A DNA stretch of 35,263 bases from a virus: positions 1-35,263 of the IMG/VR virus record IMGVR_UViG_3300020159_000861; one strand, given 5' to 3'. This document shows, piece by piece, positions 1 to 35,263 of the stretch. Made by a program: the position numbers and the translations under genes. Below the pieces are notes generated by a model. The model worked only from the letters and a program-made list of their open reading frames with translations, searched no databases and was not told where the DNA came from. Within the stretch, counting starts at the first letter, position 1. Every line of letters begins with the position of its first letter.

Positions 1-11
1 AGGAGGATCTA

Positions 12-155
12 ATGGACGCGAAGAACCAGTACGCAGTGTTACTCGCTGACGTTGCGTTGTACGAGGACAGGGGCGAGCGCATCAAGCGGCTGGAGGAGGA
101 GAACGACGCAATGAGAGCGGATCTACTGCTGTGGCGTGAGCAGGAGGCCAAATGA
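12..155 (+). CDS. Small early protein, 47 aa, unknown function
   Basis: This ORF was found by eye because it is short. It opens with ATG seven bases after a perfect AGGAGG (1-6) and encodes a charged, mostly helical peptide with a central Glu/Arg-rich stretch (ERIKRLEEEND) that could form a short coiled coil. The stop overlaps the next start as ATGA, and its last codons lie in a GGAGGCCAAATGA junction that supplies the next gene's ribosome binding site, giving the C-terminus QEAK. If the contig is circular, its own start overlaps the stop of the ORF running off the right end (TAATG). I do not recognise a family. It is probably a real member of the early micro-gene series. Confidence 0.75.
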   Translation: MDAKNQYAVLLADVALYEDRGERIKRLEEENDAMRADLLLWREQEAK

Positions 156-352
156 AAGACAGCATCGCATTCATCTACGTCCACAAGACCAACGGAGTGG
201 TCCGAGTGGAGAGTTTGGATACAGCTAAACACATCGACGGCAATCCAGAGTGGAAGCACGTTTCGACGGTCAATGCTCTCTATATTTTAGAGAGTATTTT
301 GAGAGCGAAGGGCAAAGAGCGGAACCTAATCATCAAACACCTACTATCATGA
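152..352 (+). CDS. Small early protein, 66 aa, unknown function
   Basis: The ATG overlaps the previous stop by four bases and is served by the GGAGG at 143-147. The protein starts with a hydrophobic strand (SIAFIYVHK) followed by VVRVESL, then a helical, basic C-terminal half. This suggests a small alpha/beta fold, but there is no motif I can name. Its stop overlaps the start of the 170-aa gene as ATGA, so the three first genes are translationally coupled. Function unknown. Confidence 0.7.
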   Translation: MKDSIAFIYVHKTNGVVRVESLDTAKHIDGNPEWKHVSTVNALYILESILRAKGKERNLIIKHLLS

Positions 353-868: not shown

Positions 869-1111
869 ATGACGCTGCTTCAAAAATTGGGGTTGACGAA
901 GGAGTCAATGGCGAAGATGGTGGGGCCTGTCACTCCGTTCAAAGATCCTAACCCCAGGGTCAATCGGCGGTGGGAGGCTGTTCCGACAGAAATTCGAGAG
1001 TCCATTCTCAAGGCTGATAAATCATTTACACTCAGAGAGTTGGCCAAGAAACACGACATCTCAATTACAAGCGTATGGAACATAAGGAAAAACAAAACAA
1101 ACAAACAATAG
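869..1111 (+). CDS. Small helix-turn-helix protein, 80 aa
   Basis: The C-terminal half contains a clear helix-turn-helix pattern: a first helix FTLRELAKKHD, a turn at IS, and a recognition helix ITSVWNIRKNK (about residues 52-76). This resembles homeodomain-like or transposase/Trp-repressor type DNA-binding domains. The N-terminus (to about residue 35) is Pro/Val-rich and probably disordered. The gene overlaps the 58-aa zinc-ribbon gene that begins at 1075. It is likely a DNA-binding regulator or replication accessory protein of the early region; the target is unknown. Confidence 0.72.
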   Translation: MTLLQKLGLTKESMAKMVGPVTPFKDPNPRVNRRWEAVPTEIRESILKADKSFTLRELAKKHDISITSVWNIRKNKTNKQ

Positions 1112-2716: not shown

Positions 2717-4510
2717 ATGACACCGCACCAACGTGCGGCCCTTTGGCTTTCCAAGGTGCCGCCAGCCGTCTCTGGCCAGTCCGGCCACTCAGCTACCTAC
2801 ACCGCCGCCGTGGGCCTCGTACACGGTTTCCAGCTATCCGAGGGTGACGCTATTGGCCTGCTCTCCAGCTGGAATCAATCCTGCCAACCCCCGTGGACCG
2901 ATCGCGAACTCATCCACAAGATCCGCGAGGCCGCTTCCAAGTCCCACTCCAAGCCAGCCGGCCATCTCCTTCAGTCTGGATCCGCACCCTCCACCGCTCC
3001 ATTCGATATCACCAAGGTCTCATTCAAGCGACCGTCGCCACCCATACCAACCACCCCTCCCGATCCTCAAGCCAGCGAGTTCAAGCGGTTCCTGCAAGCC
3101 GCCTTCGCTCCCACCGAGGTGGTCTGCATCTGCGACTCCGTCGAGGAGGGTAGGCCAGTCAGTGCTGGATCATTCATTCCCATCGAGGAATGGATCGCCC
3201 GCTTCGATGATCCGGCATCCCGCATCCTCTCACAGGAACGCGAGGGGATCTTCGTACGCATCAATCCCTTCAAGCCCAACCTCTACAGCGGCTCCGACAA
3301 CGACATCAGCGCGTACCGCCATGTCCTGGTCGAGTTCGATGACAAGCCCAAGCCCGAGCAGGAGAAGCTCTTCCGCGATTCTGGCCTACCCATCACCGTA
3401 CTCATCGACTCCGGTGGCAAGTCCATCCATGCCTGGGTCCGCGTCGATGCACCCAGCCGCAAAGAATGGGACGCCCGCCGGGATCTCATCTACTCGCTCA
3501 TCCCCGGAGTGGATGCTAAGAACAAGAACCCATCGCGCTACTCCCGGCTCCCAGGCGCATGGCGTAGTCCCACCTCGCAGCAACGGTTGCTGGCCACTAA
3601 CCTCGGCTCCGCTTCATGGGAAGACTACCTCACCTCACGCGAGTCCGATGACGACAAGTCCACGGTGGTCTCGATCAAAGACCTCATCAACTTTGATCCC
3701 GACAACGATCCCGACAACCTGATCGGCAAACGCTGGCTCACCCGCGGATCCTCCATGATCATCAGCGGTGGTACCGGTATCGGGAAGTCCAGCCTCATGA
3801 TGCAGATCGTCATCCGATGGTGCCTCGGCCTCGACTTCTTCGGGATCAAGCCGGTGAAGCCACTCAAGATCGGGGTCATCCAGGCCGAGAACGACAAGGG
3901 CGACCTCGCCGAGGCGTTCCGCGGGGTGGTCAAAGGACTCAACATGAGCGTCAGCGACATCGCTATCCTTCAAGAGAACCTCCACTTCCGCACCGAGGCC
4001 GTCCGCACAGGCGATCAGTTCCTCGCCTACGCCCGCCGGTTCATCCACAAATCCAAGCTCGATGTCATCGTGGCCGATCCTCTGTTCTCCTACTTCGGCG
4101 GTGATCTCAGCGACCAAGGCGAGGTCAGTGTCTTCCTTCGCAACAAACTCCAGCCCATCCTACACGAGACCAAGGTCGCTTGGATCTGGATGCACCATGT
4201 CGCCAAGCCTCAGCGCAAGGAAAGCAATGAACCACTCACCACAATGGAGCTGGCCCACTCAGGCTTCGGATCCAGCGAGCTTGCCAATTGGGCGCGGGAG
4301 ATAGCCGTTCTCCATGAGGTAGGCCAATCGAAGCCTCGACGCTTCCAGTTGGCCTTCTGCAAGCGGGGATCGCGGCTCCAGTCTAGCTCGCTTCATCTTC
4401 AGCACGCTCCCAGCGGTATCGTATGGGGGCAGTGGAACCCGATGATGATGACCGGGGCGCAACTGAAGGAGCCTCAACCACCTTCCCGTCATCCAAGGCG
4501 TCGCGCATAG
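2717..4510 (+). CDS. Primase-helicase: AEP-like primase fused to RecA-like (RepA-type) ATPase
   Basis: 597 aa. An N-terminal PriCT-like helical module (about residues 1-80; WTDRELIHKIREAASK) is followed by a region with archaeo-eukaryotic primase hallmarks: VEFDDK at 205-210, a GGKSIHAWV strand at 233-241 and SRYSRLPGAWR at 273-283. The C-terminal half is a RecA/RepA-type ATPase with Walker A GGTGIGKSS (351-359), QAEND at 389-393 and Walker B VIVADPLFSYF (D454). Such fusions prime and unwind DNA at replication forks, and this is the only replicative helicase/primase in the genome. It closes the early + strand run. The last 128 nt overlap the oppositely oriented gene at 4383-4985. The gene is visibly C-rich on its coding strand, in contrast to the G-rich terminase and portal genes. 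Confidence 0.88.
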   Translation: MTPHQRAALWLSKVPPAVSGQSGHSATYTAAVGLVHGFQLSEGDAIGLLSSWNQSCQPPWTDRELIHKIREAASKSHSKPAGHLLQSGSAPSTAPFDITKVSFKRPSPPIPTTPPDPQASEFKRFLQAAFAPTEVVCICDSVEEGRPVSAGSFIPIEEWIARFDDPASRILSQEREGIFVRINPFKPNLYSGSDNDISAYRHVLVEFDDKPKPEQEKLFRDSGLPITVLIDSGGKSIHAWVRVDAPSRKEWDARRDLIYSLIPGVDAKNKNPSRYSRLPGAWRSPTSQQRLLATNLGSASWEDYLTSRESDDDKSTVVSIKDLINFDPDNDPDNLIGKRWLTRGSSMIISGGTGIGKSSLMMQIVIRWCLGLDFFGIKPVKPLKIGVIQAENDKGDLAEAFRGVVKGLNMSVSDIAILQENLHFRTEAVRTGDQFLAYARRFIHKSKLDVIVADPLFSYFGGDLSDQGEVSVFLRNKLQPILHETKVAWIWMHHVAKPQRKESNEPLTTMELAHSGFGSSELANWAREIAVLHEVGQSKPRRFQLAFCKRGSRLQSSSLHLQHAPSGIVWGQWNPMMMTGAQLKEPQPPSRHPRRRA

Positions 4511-30351: not shown

Positions 30352-30358
30352 GGCTTGC

Positions 30359-30532
30359 GTGAGCGTAAAACTTCTAACCGTCCAAGAGATCGCTTCGGCT
30401 CTCGGGACTCATCCCGAGACGGTGCGACGGTGGATCCGGTCAGGAAAGCTTCCGGCTATGAAAGCCACGAAGCGCACCATCCGTGTCCGCTCCGATGTAA
30501 TCGAGGAACTCCTCCGACAAAACCCACAATGA
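30359..30532 (+). CDS. Excisionase/MerR-like small HTH protein, 57 aa (GTG start)
   Basis: The protein reads VKLLTVQEIASALGTHPETV then RRWIRSGKLPAMKATKRT, the classic winged-helix helix-turn-helix of excisionase/MerR-like DNA-binding proteins. Residues 6-28 form the HTH and KATKRTIRVRSDVIEELL the wing and helix. No integrase is present, so it more likely regulates transcription of the early block than excision. GTG 30359 is chosen over TTG 30332 because the longer N-terminus is not conserved-looking. The next gene starts four bases before its stop. Confidence 0.78.
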   Translation: MSVKLLTVQEIASALGTHPETVRRWIRSGKLPAMKATKRTIRVRSDVIEELLRQNPQ

Positions 30533-31320
30533 ACAACTCAATCGCAACGACAACCCCCCAACCCTCAGATCAATCTGAGATGTACTCCAAGATCCAAGAC
30601 CCCATCTCAGCCATCGAGAAGATGGGCGAGTGGATCGCAGCCAGCGGAATGCTGGGATGCACCAAGATCGAACAAGGTAAACTCATCGCGTGGCAGTGCG
30701 CCGCCGAGAAGAAGACCCCGTTCGATTTCAAACGCGAGTACCACATCATCAATGGTTCTCTCTCCATGCGCTCCGATGCCATGCTTGCCGGATACCGTGC
30801 CCGCGGCGGTAAGATTTTATGGAAGCAGTTCGACTCCCGCGCCGCCATCGCCCTATGGACCTACGATGGCAATGCATGCGAGATCTCATTCACCACCGAG
30901 GACGCTAAGATGGCCGGCTTACTACCCGCCAAGCCGGGTTCTGGGTGGGCCAAGGATCCCGCCGCAATGCTCCGCGCTCGCTGTATCAGCAAAGCGGTTC
31001 GCATGCTGGCGCCAGAGGTTGTGGCCGGCATCTACACGCCAGAGGAGACCGAGGACTTCCAGCCCTCCATCACCGAGGTCGCAGCCGTTCCCACTAAGTC
31101 CTTCGATATCACCGCCAAGCTCGAAGGCTTATTCGAGGATCGCGAGGATGAGGTCAACGCTCTCCTGCTCAAGGCCGGTCGCATTCAGGATGGTCAGACC
31201 TTCCGCGATCTTCCCGATGCGGTCGCCTCCAAGTACATAGCCAAGCCTGACCTCATCCTGTCCAAGCTGGCCGTCATCGTCACCCCCGAGATCGTCACCA
31301 CGGAGGTTTCCAATGGTTGA
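30529..31320 (+). CDS. recT: RecT-like single-strand annealing protein, 263 aa
   Basis: Residues 55-172 match RecT strongly: WQCAAEKKTPFDFKREYHII, NGSLSMRSDAMLAGYRARGG, FTTEDAKMAGLLPAKPGSGW and AKDPAAMLRARCISKAVRML followed by APEVVAGIYTPEE. RecT binds ssDNA and anneals it with complementary strands during phage recombination and replication. The start at 30529 is preferred to the long upstream ORF extension, which reads as a frame shadow of the excisionase-like gene. The gene overlaps the exonuclease gene by eight nt, as RecT and RecE usually act together. Confidence 0.9.
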   Translation: MNNSIATTTPQPSDQSEMYSKIQDPISAIEKMGEWIAASGMLGCTKIEQGKLIAWQCAAEKKTPFDFKREYHIINGSLSMRSDAMLAGYRARGGKILWKQFDSRAAIALWTYDGNACEISFTTEDAKMAGLLPAKPGSGWAKDPAAMLRARCISKAVRMLAPEVVAGIYTPEETEDFQPSITEVAAVPTKSFDITAKLEGLFEDREDEVNALLLKAGRIQDGQTFRDLPDAVASKYIAKPDLILSKLAVIVTPEIVTTEVSNG

Positions 31321-32089
31321 TATCATGCACGACATGCCCGCCGCGGATTACCACGAGGCAAAGGCACTCTCGAAGTCTGGTCTCGACCAGTTCCGCAAGT
31401 CCCCCGCTCACTTCCGCGCTTGGCAGGATGGCAAGACCCGCAACGAATCCAGCCCCGCGCTGGAGTTCGGTACCGCCGCTCATTGCGCTGTCCTGGAGCC
31501 GGAACGCTTCATCCTGACCTACCGCCTCTTCACCGGGGATCGCCGCACCAAGCAAGGTAAGGAAGACCACCAGCTCATCATCGACAACGGATTCATTCCG
31601 CTGCCGCAGGATCAGTGGAACAACCTCACTGGACTCGCGTCTGCCGTACACGCTCATCCTGCTGCTGCTGGCCTACTGGATGGCATCAAGACCGAGGTCT
31701 CGTACTTTGCCGAATGGTCCGGCATTGAAGTCAAAGCTCGTATCGATGGTATCGGTAAGGACTTCATCATCGACCTCAAGACCACCCAGGATGCCAGCCC
31801 TTCGGCGTTCGCTAAGTCTTGCGCTCAGTTCCGATACTTCGTCCAAGCCGCTTGGTACATGCGGATCACCGGCATCAATCGCTTCATCTTCATCGCAGCC
31901 GAGAAGGAAGCACCCTACGGGGTCTGCTGCTATGAGCTTGATCAGCAGGCCATTGATCTCGGAGTCTCGATCATCGAGGAACAACTCCGCACGTTCGTCG
32001 AATGCCAGGAACTAAACTCTTGGCCCTGTTACCCATCCACCACACAAACACTTTCGCTGCCCGCGTGGGCCGCTCGTCAGTCCGAATAA
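31313..32089 (+). CDS. RecE/YqaJ-like exonuclease, PD-(D/E)XK family, 258 aa
   Basis: The sequence contains LSKSGLDQFRKSPAHF, LEFGTAAHCAVLEPERF and KARIDG (D145) followed by DFIIDLKTT (D154, K156) and QFRYFVQAAWYM, the order of motifs expected of a PD-(D/E)XK exonuclease of the RecE/lambda-exonuclease-like group (exodeoxyribonuclease VIII family). It degrades one strand of double-stranded DNA ends, producing the ssDNA on which RecT acts. The overlap with recT and the position next to an SSB-like gene make a complete recombination cassette. Confidence 0.88.
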   Translation: MVDIMHDMPAADYHEAKALSKSGLDQFRKSPAHFRAWQDGKTRNESSPALEFGTAAHCAVLEPERFILTYRLFTGDRRTKQGKEDHQLIIDNGFIPLPQDQWNNLTGLASAVHAHPAAAGLLDGIKTEVSYFAEWSGIEVKARIDGIGKDFIIDLKTTQDASPSAFAKSCAQFRYFVQAAWYMRITGINRFIFIAAEKEAPYGVCCYELDQQAIDLGVSIIEEQLRTFVECQELNSWPCYPSTTQTLSLPAWAARQSE

Positions 32090-32114: not shown

Positions 32115-32534
32115 ATGACATTCAAAGTTGATCGCGCATCCGCAGAAGTAAAACCGTTCGCCGGCCCCGGCGAATACACCGTCACCGTCAACTCCTGCAA
32201 GGACGACGGTCTCGATAAGAACGGTAACGCCGTCGCAACCCTCCGTTACAAGGGGCCAGCCGGTGAGATCATCAGCGACCGGTTCGTTCTTAAAGACACC
32301 ATGATGTGGCGGCTCCAGGCACTCATCAGTGCCACCGAAGCCAACATCGCCGATGGAGACGAGTTCGATTTTAGTGTCGGAGGGGCTTTCCTCCGGTTCC
32401 TGCAAGGATTCGTAGGTCTGTCCCTCGTGATCGTGATCGAGGAGGAACGGTACACCGACAAGTTCGGGGCGGAACAGACTGCCTTCCGAGTTCGTCGCAT
32501 GAAGAAGCTGCCGGTGGATCTCGACGCCATCTAA
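32115..32534 (+). CDS. SSB-like protein (DUF669-type), 139 aa
   Basis: It begins MTFKVDRASAEVKPFAGPG, then YTVTVNSCKDDGLDKNGNA, and has strand-rich GEIISDRFVLKDTMMWRLQA. The layout resembles DUF669-type OB-like proteins that accompany RecT and exonuclease in phages and bind ssDNA. It is the third gene of the recombination cassette. The leader CATACCAAA has no Shine-Dalgarno. A perfect GC hairpin lies 15 nt downstream. Confidence 0.72.
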   Translation: MTFKVDRASAEVKPFAGPGEYTVTVNSCKDDGLDKNGNAVATLRYKGPAGEIISDRFVLKDTMMWRLQALISATEANIADGDEFDFSVGGAFLRFLQGFVGLSLVIVIEEERYTDKFGAEQTAFRVRRMKKLPVDLDAI

Positions 32535-32619: not shown

Positions 32620-33741
32620 ATGCAGACCAAAGATCATCCTGAAATTAAAACGGCGCAAGCTTTTCTGCTTCGTCCCTATCAGCAACGAGCAGTCGAGTGG
32701 GCCAAGTCTGGTGCTGATGGACTTATCATCGCGCCAGCCGGTAGCGGAAAGACCCTCATCGCTTCCTCCATCATCAAGCACTTTGCTCGGTGGCCCGAGT
32801 GGACCTTCGGATGGCTGGCTCCTACCCGTGAGACCTGTCAGCAGGCGATCGCTTCGCTTGTCGCAGTAGGAGTCGATACTTCACGGGTCGAGGTTCGTTG
32901 CCCCCATGAATCCGTAGATTTCTCCCGTAAGAACCTCATCATCGTTGACGAGTGTAAACATAGTCCAGCGAAAATTTGGCACAAAATTATAGACCAGTGC
33001 AAAGGACTCCGCTACGGCTTTGACGCCACCCCCTGGTGCGATGATCCAGAGCGTAACGAGATCCTTCGTAAGATGTTCCGCGATACCCAGTTCGAGATCC
33101 GCCGGGATGAACTGGCCGGTGTACTCGCACATGCCAACATCTACATGCACTCTGCTACTGACCTGCATCTCCAGCAGAAGATCGATGATCAAATCGAGAG
33201 GCTGTTTGCCGATCGCAAGAGGTACATGCAGGTCAGCCAGCCTATCCTTCGGGCCATGTGCGCTTGGGAGGCACTCACCGAGATTGGTATCTGTGGGAAC
33301 AGGGCCAGGAACGATATGGCGATCATGATGGCCGCATCCAGTGGTCCTAAATCTCCCACGCTTGTTCTGGTTCCACGAGTCACACTCGGAATGCATTACA
33401 TGCTGTCATTGAGCGGCTCCATACTCGTCCACTCGAAGATGCCGAAGAAGCATCGGCGCGAAGCAATGGAAGAGTTCAAAGCGGGGAATATCCAAACCAT
33501 GATCGCCACCTCGCTGGCCGATGAGGGTCTCGACCTTCCTAACGTCCACACGCTCGTAATGGTATCTGGAGGGCGATCCGCACAGAAAACCATCCAGCGG
33601 GCCAGCCGTGCGCTGCGGCGGGCACCGGGTAAGGACACTGCCATCATCCATGACTTCAAGGATACCTTCCATCCTCTGGCTCTGGCTCACTCCAAGAAAC
33701 GGGTCAAGTGCTACAAGGAACTTGGATGTTCGATCCCATGA
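32620..33741 (+). CDS. SF2 DEAD/DEAH-like helicase, 373 aa
   Basis: A Q-motif-like RPYQQRAVEW (18-27) precedes Walker A APAGSGKTL (38-46), motif II LIIVDECKH (107-114, DECK), motif III FDATPW (134-139) and the C-terminal helicase motifs LVHSKMPKKHRREAMEEF, IATSLADEGLDLPNV and QRASRALRR (about 325-335). These are the ordered motifs of a superfamily 2 helicase. Phage proteins of this kind (such as T4 UvsW-type) resolve recombination intermediates or remodel replication forks. It starts 79 nt after the SSB-like gene and is followed by an ATGA-coupled small membrane protein. Confidence 0.88.
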   Translation: MQTKDHPEIKTAQAFLLRPYQQRAVEWAKSGADGLIIAPAGSGKTLIASSIIKHFARWPEWTFGWLAPTRETCQQAIASLVAVGVDTSRVEVRCPHESVDFSRKNLIIVDECKHSPAKIWHKIIDQCKGLRYGFDATPWCDDPERNEILRKMFRDTQFEIRRDELAGVLAHANIYMHSATDLHLQQKIDDQIERLFADRKRYMQVSQPILRAMCAWEALTEIGICGNRARNDMAIMMAASSGPKSPTLVLVPRVTLGMHYMLSLSGSILVHSKMPKKHRREAMEEFKAGNIQTMIATSLADEGLDLPNVHTLVMVSGGRSAQKTIQRASRALRRAPGKDTAIIHDFKDTFHPLALAHSKKRVKCYKELGCSIP

Positions 33742-33875
33742 GCACTGCACTGACTATCATGGGCATGGCGATACTGCTGCCATTCTGCGTGATCGCCGGT
33801 ATCTATGTCGGCCACTCTCTCACTATTCGGTCCCAACAAACTAATGAAAACAAACCAAACAATAGTCGCATGTGA
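33738..33875 (+). CDS. Single-span membrane peptide, 45 aa
   Basis: The ATG is in an ATGA overlap with the helicase stop. Residues 4-24 form a hydrophobic helix (ALTIMGMAILLPFCVIAGIY) followed by a polar tail rich in Asn and Gln. The gene overlaps the start of the RuvC-like gene by 32 nt. It may anchor something at the membrane or be a small anti-host peptide. No family recognised. Confidence 0.6.
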   Translation: MSTALTIMGMAILLPFCVIAGIYVGHSLTIRSQQTNENKPNNSRM

Positions 33876-34305
33876 CCCAGGCGTTAACGGTGGATTCGCA
33901 ATCCAAACCAAGGACGGTATACTCCTGTTCGCAATGCCCGAGTCGCTGCCCGATATGGCGCAACTCCTCAGCGGATTCAAGCTGGCGGACTCCCACCTGT
34001 GGGTTGAGAAGGTTCCTAAGTTCGTGTCCAAGCTGACCCCCTCATCGAGCGTGGCAACACTCCATGAGAACTACGGTATCGTCCAAGGACTGGCCTACTC
34101 ACAAGGTTACGCGCTTCACCGCGTGGAACCCAAGGTGTGGCAGGATCCTCTTGGACTCGGCGGCAAACGATCATGCGCCAATTCCGCGGAGTGGAAGCGT
34201 AAGCTCAAGAGCAAGGCCCAGGAACTCTACCCTCACCTCGATGTGACTCTTAAGAACTGCGATGCCCTGCTGGTTCTCCACTACGCACTCGGAGGTGGCC
34301 GATGA
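33844..34305 (+). CDS. RuvC-like Holliday-junction resolvase, 153 aa
   Basis: The start at 33844 is preferred to an upstream in-frame one at 33805. The sequence has an RNase-H-fold opening TIVACDPGVNGGFAIQTKDG (D11), a middle acidic VEKV (E55), and KNCDALLVLHYALG (D140), with D133 nearby. Those acidic residues are the metal ligands of a RuvC-like nuclease that cuts branched DNA. It follows the helicase, so branched intermediates from RecT-mediated recombination can be resolved before packaging. Confidence 0.83.
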   Translation: MKTNQTIVACDPGVNGGFAIQTKDGILLFAMPESLPDMAQLLSGFKLADSHLWVEKVPKFVSKLTPSSSVATLHENYGIVQGLAYSQGYALHRVEPKVWQDPLGLGGKRSCANSAEWKRKLKSKAQELYPHLDVTLKNCDALLVLHYALGGGR

Positions 34306-34457
34306 GCGACAAGATCAGGAACATCATCGATGGTGGCACTGGGGTGTACAGCATCAGCAAGAAAGAAGCTGGAGAAATCCACAAAGCGGCTAAGAAAGTT
34401 AAAAACCACGAGGTCAGTTACTGGACGAGGAATAGGAAGAAGAAGGAGGCGAAATGA
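34302..34457 (+). CDS. Small basic early protein, 51 aa
   Basis: It starts with an ATGA overlap and has a helical, lysine-rich sequence (KKEAGEIHKAAKKVKNHE) ending RNRKKKEAK. The final codons coincide with the GGAGGCGAAATGA junction (34445-34457) that starts the next gene. The high charge suggests nucleic-acid binding. No family recognised. Confidence 0.7.
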   Translation: MSDKIRNIIDGGTGVYSISKKEAGEIHKAAKKVKNHEVSYWTRNRKKKEAK

Positions 34458-34654
34458 CCACACTACACGAAACTGAAGAAACAATCCGCCTCACATTGAA
34501 AGGGCTGCTGTCCATCTATCTGCCAGAAAAGACGATGAACGAGGTCTTCAACGCAATCGAACTATCATGCCGTCGCAACAACTGGGGCATCGCAATCGAC
34601 GAGAACAATCGTCTGGACTTCGTTCCGATGTTGAAAGTGGAGGAGGCGAAATGA
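34454..34654 (+). CDS. Small early protein, 66 aa
   Basis: The ATG is supplied by the junction GGAGGCGAAATGA. It reads TIRLTLKGLLSIYLPEKTM, NEVFNAIELSCRRNN and a polar strand WGIAIDENNRLDFV, then ends VEEAK, encoded by the next copy of the junction. It looks like a small alpha/beta protein. Function unknown. Confidence 0.7.
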   Translation: MTTLHETEETIRLTLKGLLSIYLPEKTMNEVFNAIELSCRRNNWGIAIDENNRLDFVPMLKVEEAK

Positions 34655-35001
34655 CACGCGAACAAACAATCGAAGCCATCCGAGTCATGCAGGCGTTTGT
34701 GGATGGGAAGGAAGTGGAGGTCTTGCTTCCTTTCTCACAGTCGGAAATAGCAACTACACCTGTATGGAACTGGGATGCTAACAACTACCGCATCAAACCC
34801 ACCCCTGTCCTTCGCCCGTGGACTGCGGATGAGGTTCCGCTGGGGGCGTGGATACGGTACAAAAGAGCGTTGCATGATCGAAGCATCCTCGCATGGACAT
34901 CAAACCAAGCTGACCGAGATATGTGGCTGGATGAACGCGAACACAGCATCGACGGCGGCAAAACGTGGCTCCCGTGTGGAGTCGTGGAGGAGGCGAAATG
35001 A
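34651..35001 (+). CDS. Hypothetical early protein, 116 aa
   Basis: The start at 34651 is chosen for its place in the junction (34642-34654). It starts with a helix EQTIEAIRVMQAFVDGKEVE and continues with a Trp-rich beta region (PVWNWDANNYRI, LRPWTADEVPLGAWIRYKRA), later HSIDGGKTWLPCGV. This Trp-rich pattern is reminiscent of small phage DNA-metabolism accessory proteins, but I cannot name it. It ends VVEEAK in the next junction. Confidence 0.68.
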   Translation: MTREQTIEAIRVMQAFVDGKEVEVLLPFSQSEIATTPVWNWDANNYRIKPTPVLRPWTADEVPLGAWIRYKRALHDRSILAWTSNQADRDMWLDEREHSIDGGKTWLPCGVVEEAK

Positions 35002-35168
35002 ACGAAGAAATACTGAACAAACTATTGGAATACATTGACGCGGCAATCGACGCAAAATCCGAACAAGCGAGAGAATCGTCTGACGGAGGATTGTGTGAGG
35101 CGCGTGTAAAAGATCGCGTCAAAGACGAGCTGTTTGAACTGATAAATAAGGAGGAGGCCAAGCCGTGA
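34998..35168 (+). CDS. Small early protein, 56 aa
   Basis: The start is in the junction GGAGGCGAAATGA (34989-35001). The sequence is charged and helical (EEILNKLLEYIDAAIDAK, RVKDRVKDELFELINKEEA), ending EEAKP at a variant junction GGAGGCCAAGCCGTGA (35153-35168). It could be a small helical regulator or an inhibitor. Function unknown. Confidence 0.7.
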   Translation: MNEEILNKLLEYIDAAIDAKSEQARESSDGGLCEARVKDRVKDELFELINKEEAKP

Positions 35169-35263
35169 GTGATACCCCGAGGATGGACCTTGCGCTTCGT
35201 AAGGCACAGGAAGATTGCACTGAATCATATCTATTAACTGAAGGCCTGAAACTAGAACGCGAA
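35165..35263 (+). CDS. Partial small early protein running off the right end (GTG start)
   Basis: It begins with GTG in a GTGA overlap and reads VSDTPRMDLALRKAQEDCTE, then SYLLTEGLKLERE at the window edge. The 33 codons end exactly at the last base. Continuing from base 1 of the window adds codons AGG, AGG, ATC and the stop TAA, whose last bases overlap the next ATG (TAATGG). The protein would therefore be 36 aa. This supports a circular or circularly permuted genome. Confidence 0.7.
   Translation, partial: MSDTPRMDLALRKAQEDCTESYLLTEGLKLERE

Follow-up and report, generated by a model that had tools for sequence, protein, structure and literature searches.

The window analysed here, the whole 35,263 nucleotides of the IMG/VR virus record IMGVR_UViG_3300020159_000861, carries tailed-phage genes (terminase, portal, capsid and tail) together with an array of very small genes that runs off the right end of the record and resumes at its left end. 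All the features of the window given here lie on the + strand. To the left of the array are genes for a RecT-like single-strand annealing protein (30355..31320, phrog_561), an Exonuclease VIII or RecE-like protein (31313..32089, phrog_412), a single-strand DNA binding protein (SSB; 32115..32534, phrog_378), a DNA helicase (32620..33741, phrog_16) and a RuvC-type Holliday junction resolvase (33805..34305, phrog_1770), the last of which is the left anchor of the array. To its right, the gene for an HTH-type protein (869..1111) is the first conserved gene in most close relatives, and a DNA primase gene (2717..4510, phrog_2597) serves as the right anchor.

The first array gene (34302..34457, 51 aa, family F1) is constant in following the resolvase, to which it is joined by an ATGA overlap with a Shine-Dalgarno (SD) sequence, GGAGGTGGCCGATGA (34291..34305), that is kept in relatives. 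It is followed by gene 2 (34454..34654, 66 aa, F6), gene 3 (34651..35001, 116 aa, F4, phrog_21668/phrog_15048), gene 4 (34998..35168, 56 aa, F27), a gene 5 that is divided between the two ends of the record, and gene 6 (152..352, 66 aa, F2), which is a frequent late array gene. No Pfam family was matched at accepted scores by the array proteins scanned. The 116-aa protein has a confidently predicted fold (pLDDT 90), and its model matched no solved structure, only unnamed phage proteins. No near DNA match was found in named phages, and a search of GTDB genomes for a host, made with a resolvase alignment, gave only distant, uninformative matches. Gene order and the helicase, the only two pointers, suggest a Verrucomicrobia-type phage: Verrucomicrobia phage P8625 (KP792622) has a similar order of RecT gene, helicase and small-gene run, with the primase at right, and its helicase is 35% identical to that of the window.

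The array junctions

Consecutive array genes are joined by nearly the same short sequence, referred to here as a connector. Connectors 1, 2 and 3 (34445..34457, 34642..34654 and 34989..35001) all read GGAGGCGAAATGA, which holds the SD, the codons for a C-terminal EAK and a stop TGA that overlaps the next ATG. Connector 5 (143..155) reads GGAGGCCAAATGA, and connector 4 (35153..35168), of a GTGA class with the consensus AAGGAGGMCAAGCYGTGA, reads GGAGGCCAAGCCGTGA. Each of the five sits on a 4-nt ATGA or GTGA stop/start overlap of the consecutive ORFs listed above, with the fifth ORF running from 35165 onwards. No exact repeat in the window is longer than the 18-nt GTGGAGGAGGCGAAATGA, which is common to connectors 2 and 3, at the starts at 34651 and 34998. 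The shorter motif GGAGGCSAA has five sites in the whole window, all on the + strand and all at array junctions (34445, 34642, 34989, 35153 and 143), compared with about 0.4 expected from base composition; for GGAGGCGAAATGA the expected count is 0.0008.

The connector junctions are exceptional in this genome, not ordinary, which was the doubt that an earlier sequence-only reading of the window had itself raised. Besides the confinement of GGAGGCSAA to junctions, most large genes of the window outside 34302-352 lack an SD, whereas the array genes have strong ones. Among relatives, the share with an SD-like 5-mer is 76% for array genes, falls to 29% for long genes elsewhere and is 11% for random positions. 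Two initiation styles, an SD-strong one in the array and an SD-less one in the large genes, are seen within one genome. The sequence-only reading had described six repeated junctions, each combining a ribosome binding site, a stop and the overlapping start of the next gene; this architecture is present at five, and the sixth, across the record ends, proved false. It further stated that most of the proteins end in EAK; four of the six do, one of the others ends in EAKP and the last in HLLS.

The rejected junction is AGGAGGATCTAATGG at position 1, for which relatives place both ends of the record inside one gene. In the 12 relatives shown, ...CGCATCAAGCGG(C/T)TGG or comparable coding sequence stands before AGGAGGATCTAATGG or a close variant of it, and the right end of the window, ...GAACGCGAA (...CTAGAACGCGAA), runs on in relatives as CTCAACGC..GCCAATGAGCGCATCAAG.... 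In locus L164 (relatives are designated by L numbers) 34 nt lie between the two flanks and keep the frame (CTCAACGC..CGCATCAAGCGGTTGG). The record ends therefore interrupt a single gene, array gene 5, which spans 35165 to 155 and whose protein reads ...LERE-LNAANDRIKRLEE-DLMDAKN.... Its 5' part (35165..35263), of a coiled-coil 'SDTPR...LERE' type, continues across the record ends; in its 3' part (1..155) the frame is open from base 3, and AGGAGGATCTAATGG at 1-15 is internal coding sequence. About 34 nt appear to be absent between the ends, where no terminal repeat was found. The break in assembly (35263 / 1) lies at a repeated coiled-coil seam. Since the record-end junction is false, the array in the window has six genes and five repeated junctions.

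Gene content in relatives

With the resolvase and the 116-aa array protein as anchors some 160 loci were obtained, and three further resolvase queries and a connector scan gave more, with overlaps; about 490 fetched loci were compared, and 495 sequences including the window entered the final gain/loss test. Genes were called with our own simple dynamic-programming caller. All relatives are metagenome contigs. Across them the backbone is conserved, with RecT, exonuclease, SSB, helicase and resolvase on the left and primase on the right, and the array in between varies; RecT, exonuclease or resolvase was found in 30 of 32 loci. Counted over 47 non-redundant close arrays, 327 of the 379 junctions are 4-nt overlaps, and the 69 families present form 147 different adjacencies.

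A given gene has different successors in different relatives, joined to it by the same connector. The slot after F1 is occupied in relatives by nine different families, joined via connectors of the AAGGA..AAATGA type, and F4 is followed by any of four (F0, F3, F27 or F76) through GTGGAGGAGGCGAAATGA. Gene 2 of the window (34454-34654) is missing in L013, L015, L146, L149 and L162, where gene 1 is joined straight to the family of gene 3. Gene content thus does change at the junctions, and the check that the sequence-only reading had proposed, whether different genes occupy the same slots with an unchanged junction, is answered positively for both the F1 and the F4 slots. Of the downstream-gene clusters at SD-bearing 4-nt overlaps, 77% have more than one upstream partner, compared with 22-30% of those at other gene boundaries in the same loci.

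Near-isogenic phages, whose flanks are 98-100% identical, carry different cassettes. For L058/L060 versus L063 the left 1700 nt are 100% identical and the right flank 99.2%, and the homology blocks end in a 23-25 nt repeat, AAGCCAAGGAGGCCAAGCTGTGA(GC), on either side of one cassette. L079 and L083 (flanks 99.1/98.8%) differ in their cassettes, and L026/L035 and L063/L074 are further near-isogenic pairs with different arrays. The block ends in such pairs fall exactly at ...AAGGAGGCCAAGCTGTGA repeats.

The ends of blastn homology blocks, which are fuzzy by several bases, fall 0-10 nt past start codons in 195 cases compared with 35 expected, and they occur at junctions four times above random expectation. 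Between backbone groups I and III, defined by resolvase identity above 80% and below 45% (aa), junctions account for 36-39% of block ends where 9% would be expected, and an intragenic seam for 10-13% where 1% would be; about half lie at neither. The two groups also hold near-identical segments, some of them bounded by connectors on both sides, as in L010/L265. The seam, CGCATCAAGCGGCTGGAG, is at 78..95 in the window, encodes RIKRLE of a coiled coil and is a recurrent block-end site in relatives. It has 403 sites in the loci compared, at which different micro-proteins have exchanged N- and C-terminal halves. Comparison of the contigs shows that genes come, go and are replaced at connectors that themselves persist.

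In two relatives a gene for an HNH endonuclease (PF13392) lies inside an F3 micro-gene, which it splits in one (L035:5983-6684) and apparently in the other (L074:1972-2650). It is possibly a homing endonuclease and, if so, a potential source of additional breaks in the arrays of some phages.

Conservation of the connector beyond ribosome binding

Might the connectors be nothing more than optimised ribosome-binding sites, with genes joined at random by illegitimate recombination and selection keeping SD, frame and overlap, so that their similarity is convergent? The SD and the overlap are functional and needed for coupling, the array is SD-rich in an SD-poor genome, and ATGA-class junctions are indeed looser, with chiefly GGA, AA and TGA conserved across families; between non-homologous genes it is mainly GGA and TGA. 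The GTGA class points the other way. Here AAGGAGGMCAAGCY-GTGA is conserved across 18 upstream-gene groups with unrelated C-termini, and the conserved part includes a linker, AAGC(C/T), that has no anti-SD role. An IMG/VR scan with the 18-mer of this class found it in at least 120 stretches, in phages whose backbone similarity is divergent or undetectable, and 195 of 201 matches, among the matches listed, are true coding junctions. A control motif with the same composition, SD and overlap was found in only two IMG/VR stretches, some 60 times fewer. The concentration of block ends at the intragenic seam, which is not a gene boundary, also argues against selection for translation as the whole explanation.

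A test of start-codon A or G against upstream or downstream family was uninformative at the family level, and connector identity was compared at the nucleotide level instead. Where the downstream gene is the same and the upstream genes are non-homologous, connector identity is 9.07/14, compared with 5.02 in unrelated pairs, and this identity decays within -14..0, though -14..0 codes for the upstream protein. Exact tracts of at least 20 nt are shared by 1.2% of non-homologous connector pairs and by 0.02% of other overlaps; 36% of array pairs share at least one such tract. By these comparisons the connector is common to non-homologous genes and to divergent phages, including bases that have no SD role.

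Connector arrays are also present in L167, L219, L242 and others, contigs in which none of the anchor genes of the window was detected, and the cassette pool therefore reaches beyond this phage group. A third junction type, the SD-less GARAAACC-ATGA with protein ends EKP or IKP, is found between several unrelated genes in the right part of the array, as in L029 and L047.

Connector similarity and cassette exchange

The proposal of the sequence-only reading, that the junction is a recombination point for swapping micro-genes, is well supported by the comparison of these loci, in which similarity between connectors predicts cassette gain and loss. Cassettes of one to three genes that have been gained or lost have flanking connectors more similar to each other than those of other cassettes (odds ratio 2.9, p = 2.5e-5), and the effect persists when only SD-bearing connectors are counted (odds ratio 2.8, p = 9e-4); both p values are optimistic because the loci share ancestry and the events are not phylogenetically independent. 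An earlier and smaller indel test gave p = 0.01-0.05 at lower similarity cut-offs, and 10 of 40 indels had dissimilar connectors. The persistence of the effect among SD-bearing connectors is a further point against the view that they are ribosome-binding sites and nothing else. Random joining, with selection retaining intact genes, would likewise place breakpoints at gene boundaries, and most connector pairs share less than 20 nt, below the published minimum for both Redbeta and RecA, which counts against homology-driven exchange. On balance we consider the explanation by random joining and selection unlikely, and the strongest of the alternatives.

The minimum homology is 23-27 bp for Redbeta and 31-34 bp for RecA (PMC3945230). 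By these values the connector tracts of 20 nt or more approach the Redbeta length and fall under that for RecA, making the phage's own annealing protein the more plausible agent. The enzyme that uses the connector is probably the RecT/exonuclease system of the phage itself, and the short homology in the connector may be the physical substrate of the crossover.

Discussion

We conclude that the repeated junction is probably a standardised connector for translational coupling that serves at the same time as a short-homology seam for exchange, with annealing of the RecT/exonuclease type as the most likely means. The array would consist of small, translationally coupled accessory genes between the recombination operon and the HTH and primase genes, each ending in a standard connector of SD, short linker and a TGA overlapping the next ATG or GTG. 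Crossovers would form where connectors of 13-25 nt pair, and additionally at the intragenic RIKRLEE seam; strand annealing while the phage replicates or when two phages share a cell is the most likely route. Cassettes would change hands singly or a few at a time, with reading frames, ribosome binding and coupling left intact, and usefulness in translation together with homogenisation through exchange would keep the connector standard.

Three other readings of the array are, in our view, far less probable than convergent ribosome-binding sites. The array could have been built by tandem duplication and divergence, the junctions being alike through the common descent of paralogs; 80 of 426 array genes do have a same-family member in their own array, and coiled-coil C-termini (RIKRLEE...) recur in many proteins. 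Neighbours are nevertheless mostly of unrelated families (membrane-like, zinc-ribbon-like and mixed) with the same last five or six codons, and identical cassettes occur in divergent phages, leaving this origin very improbable. We attach as little weight to the possibility that the swaps are chimeras of metagenomic assembly at short repeats, to which the metagenomic source of every relative and the position of the window's own ends inside a repeated seam lend some colour. Such chimerism is unlikely to be the general explanation, since the same arrays turn up in separate samples (L058/L060, L023/L024, L050/L051 and L014/L015/L038); in addition, connectors of 13-25 nt are short relative to modern assembly k-mers, and the connector is common to the ends of non-homologous genes even within one contig. 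Site-specific, integron-like insertion by a recombinase that recognises the connector would account for one-gene units with a conserved short sequence at both ends, but it is the least credible of all, given that the window proteins scanned (a subset of ORFs) included no integrase or recombinase family, that variation in mid-connector (GCG, TCG, TGC, ACC and others) is unusual for a recombinase core, and that hybrid connectors suggest variable crossover points.

The exchange seam proposed here has relatives among known systems. The nin region of phage lambda is a 'chain of interlinked genes' (Kroger and Hobom 1982, described in PMC8022706), and like it the array comprises small accessory genes with ATGA overlaps and an SD in the upstream gene, placed beside replication and recombination genes and variable between relatives. 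Lambda (NC_001416, our L286) has a shorter connector of its own in the same style, GC(T/C)GCATGA, at three nin junctions, the starts of ninC, ninD and ninH. The lambda nin connectors are less alike, however, with a mean identity of 5.5/14 compared with 9.5/14 in the window, and the connector of the window has a longer non-SD consensus that is common to unrelated genes across divergent phages. No homologs of nin genes (ninB/orf, ninG/rap, ninX and others) were found by Pfam or PHROG among the array proteins scanned, and the adjacent resolvase is phrog_1770, not NinG/Rap. In phage P8625 the connector motif was not found in the 20.0-32.9 kb stretch searched.

Short conserved gene-boundary sequences of lambdoid phages have reportedly been proposed as sites of homologous exchange, in the 'boundary sequence' or linker model of modular phage evolution attributed to Susskind and Botstein in 1978 and Clark et al. 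in 2001. The array resembles these in that one short sequence separates neighbours that are non-homologous on either side, and in that gene content changes at this boundary in close relatives. The difference is that here the boundary is a functional, in-frame SD/stop/start connector that recurs at nearly all array junctions, so that any cassette can follow any other. The promoter-early stem-loops (PeSLs) of T4-type phages, for their part, are mobile regulatory cassettes that mediate modular shuffling (Arbiol 2010 and Comeau 2014, as cited in PMC4503421). Both are repeated regulatory elements between small genes, acting as shuffling points in a hyperplastic region. PeSLs are promoter-terminator elements between genes, whereas the connector is a translational element of 13-25 nt within a coding overlap, with no promoter or terminator; indeed the array has no intergenic early promoter and stem-loop terminator, since genes overlapping by 4 nt leave no room for them. 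Integron cassettes are likewise one-gene units with a common junction, but the connector encodes ribosome binding and coupling, not a recombination hairpin; no integrase was seen among the window proteins scanned, nor was an attC-like site noticed. A literature search for SD-type phage cassettes found nothing. The array, which is not nin by gene content and not a PeSL system, is the clearest case we have found of a standardised translational connector that may double as an exchange seam.

It is debated whether the mosaicism of phages reflects recombination at short shared sites or random joins filtered by selection (PMC3945230). The array offers one connector at most junctions, near-isogenic phages that differ only in their cassettes, and a seam in which identity can be altered by recoding while translation is left as it is, and it therefore makes the question directly testable. 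In addition, AAGGAGGMCAAGCYGTGA and GGAGGCGAAATGA provide a DNA handle with which large sets of phage accessory genes could be collected from metagenomes. Finally, and more tentatively, divergent phages may draw on a shared micro-gene pool in which a single in-frame connector is at once ribosome binding site, coupling overlap and recombination address, its non-translational bases being maintained by exchange itself with RecT-type annealing as the engine. If this is true, it would amount to evolvability by standard parts.
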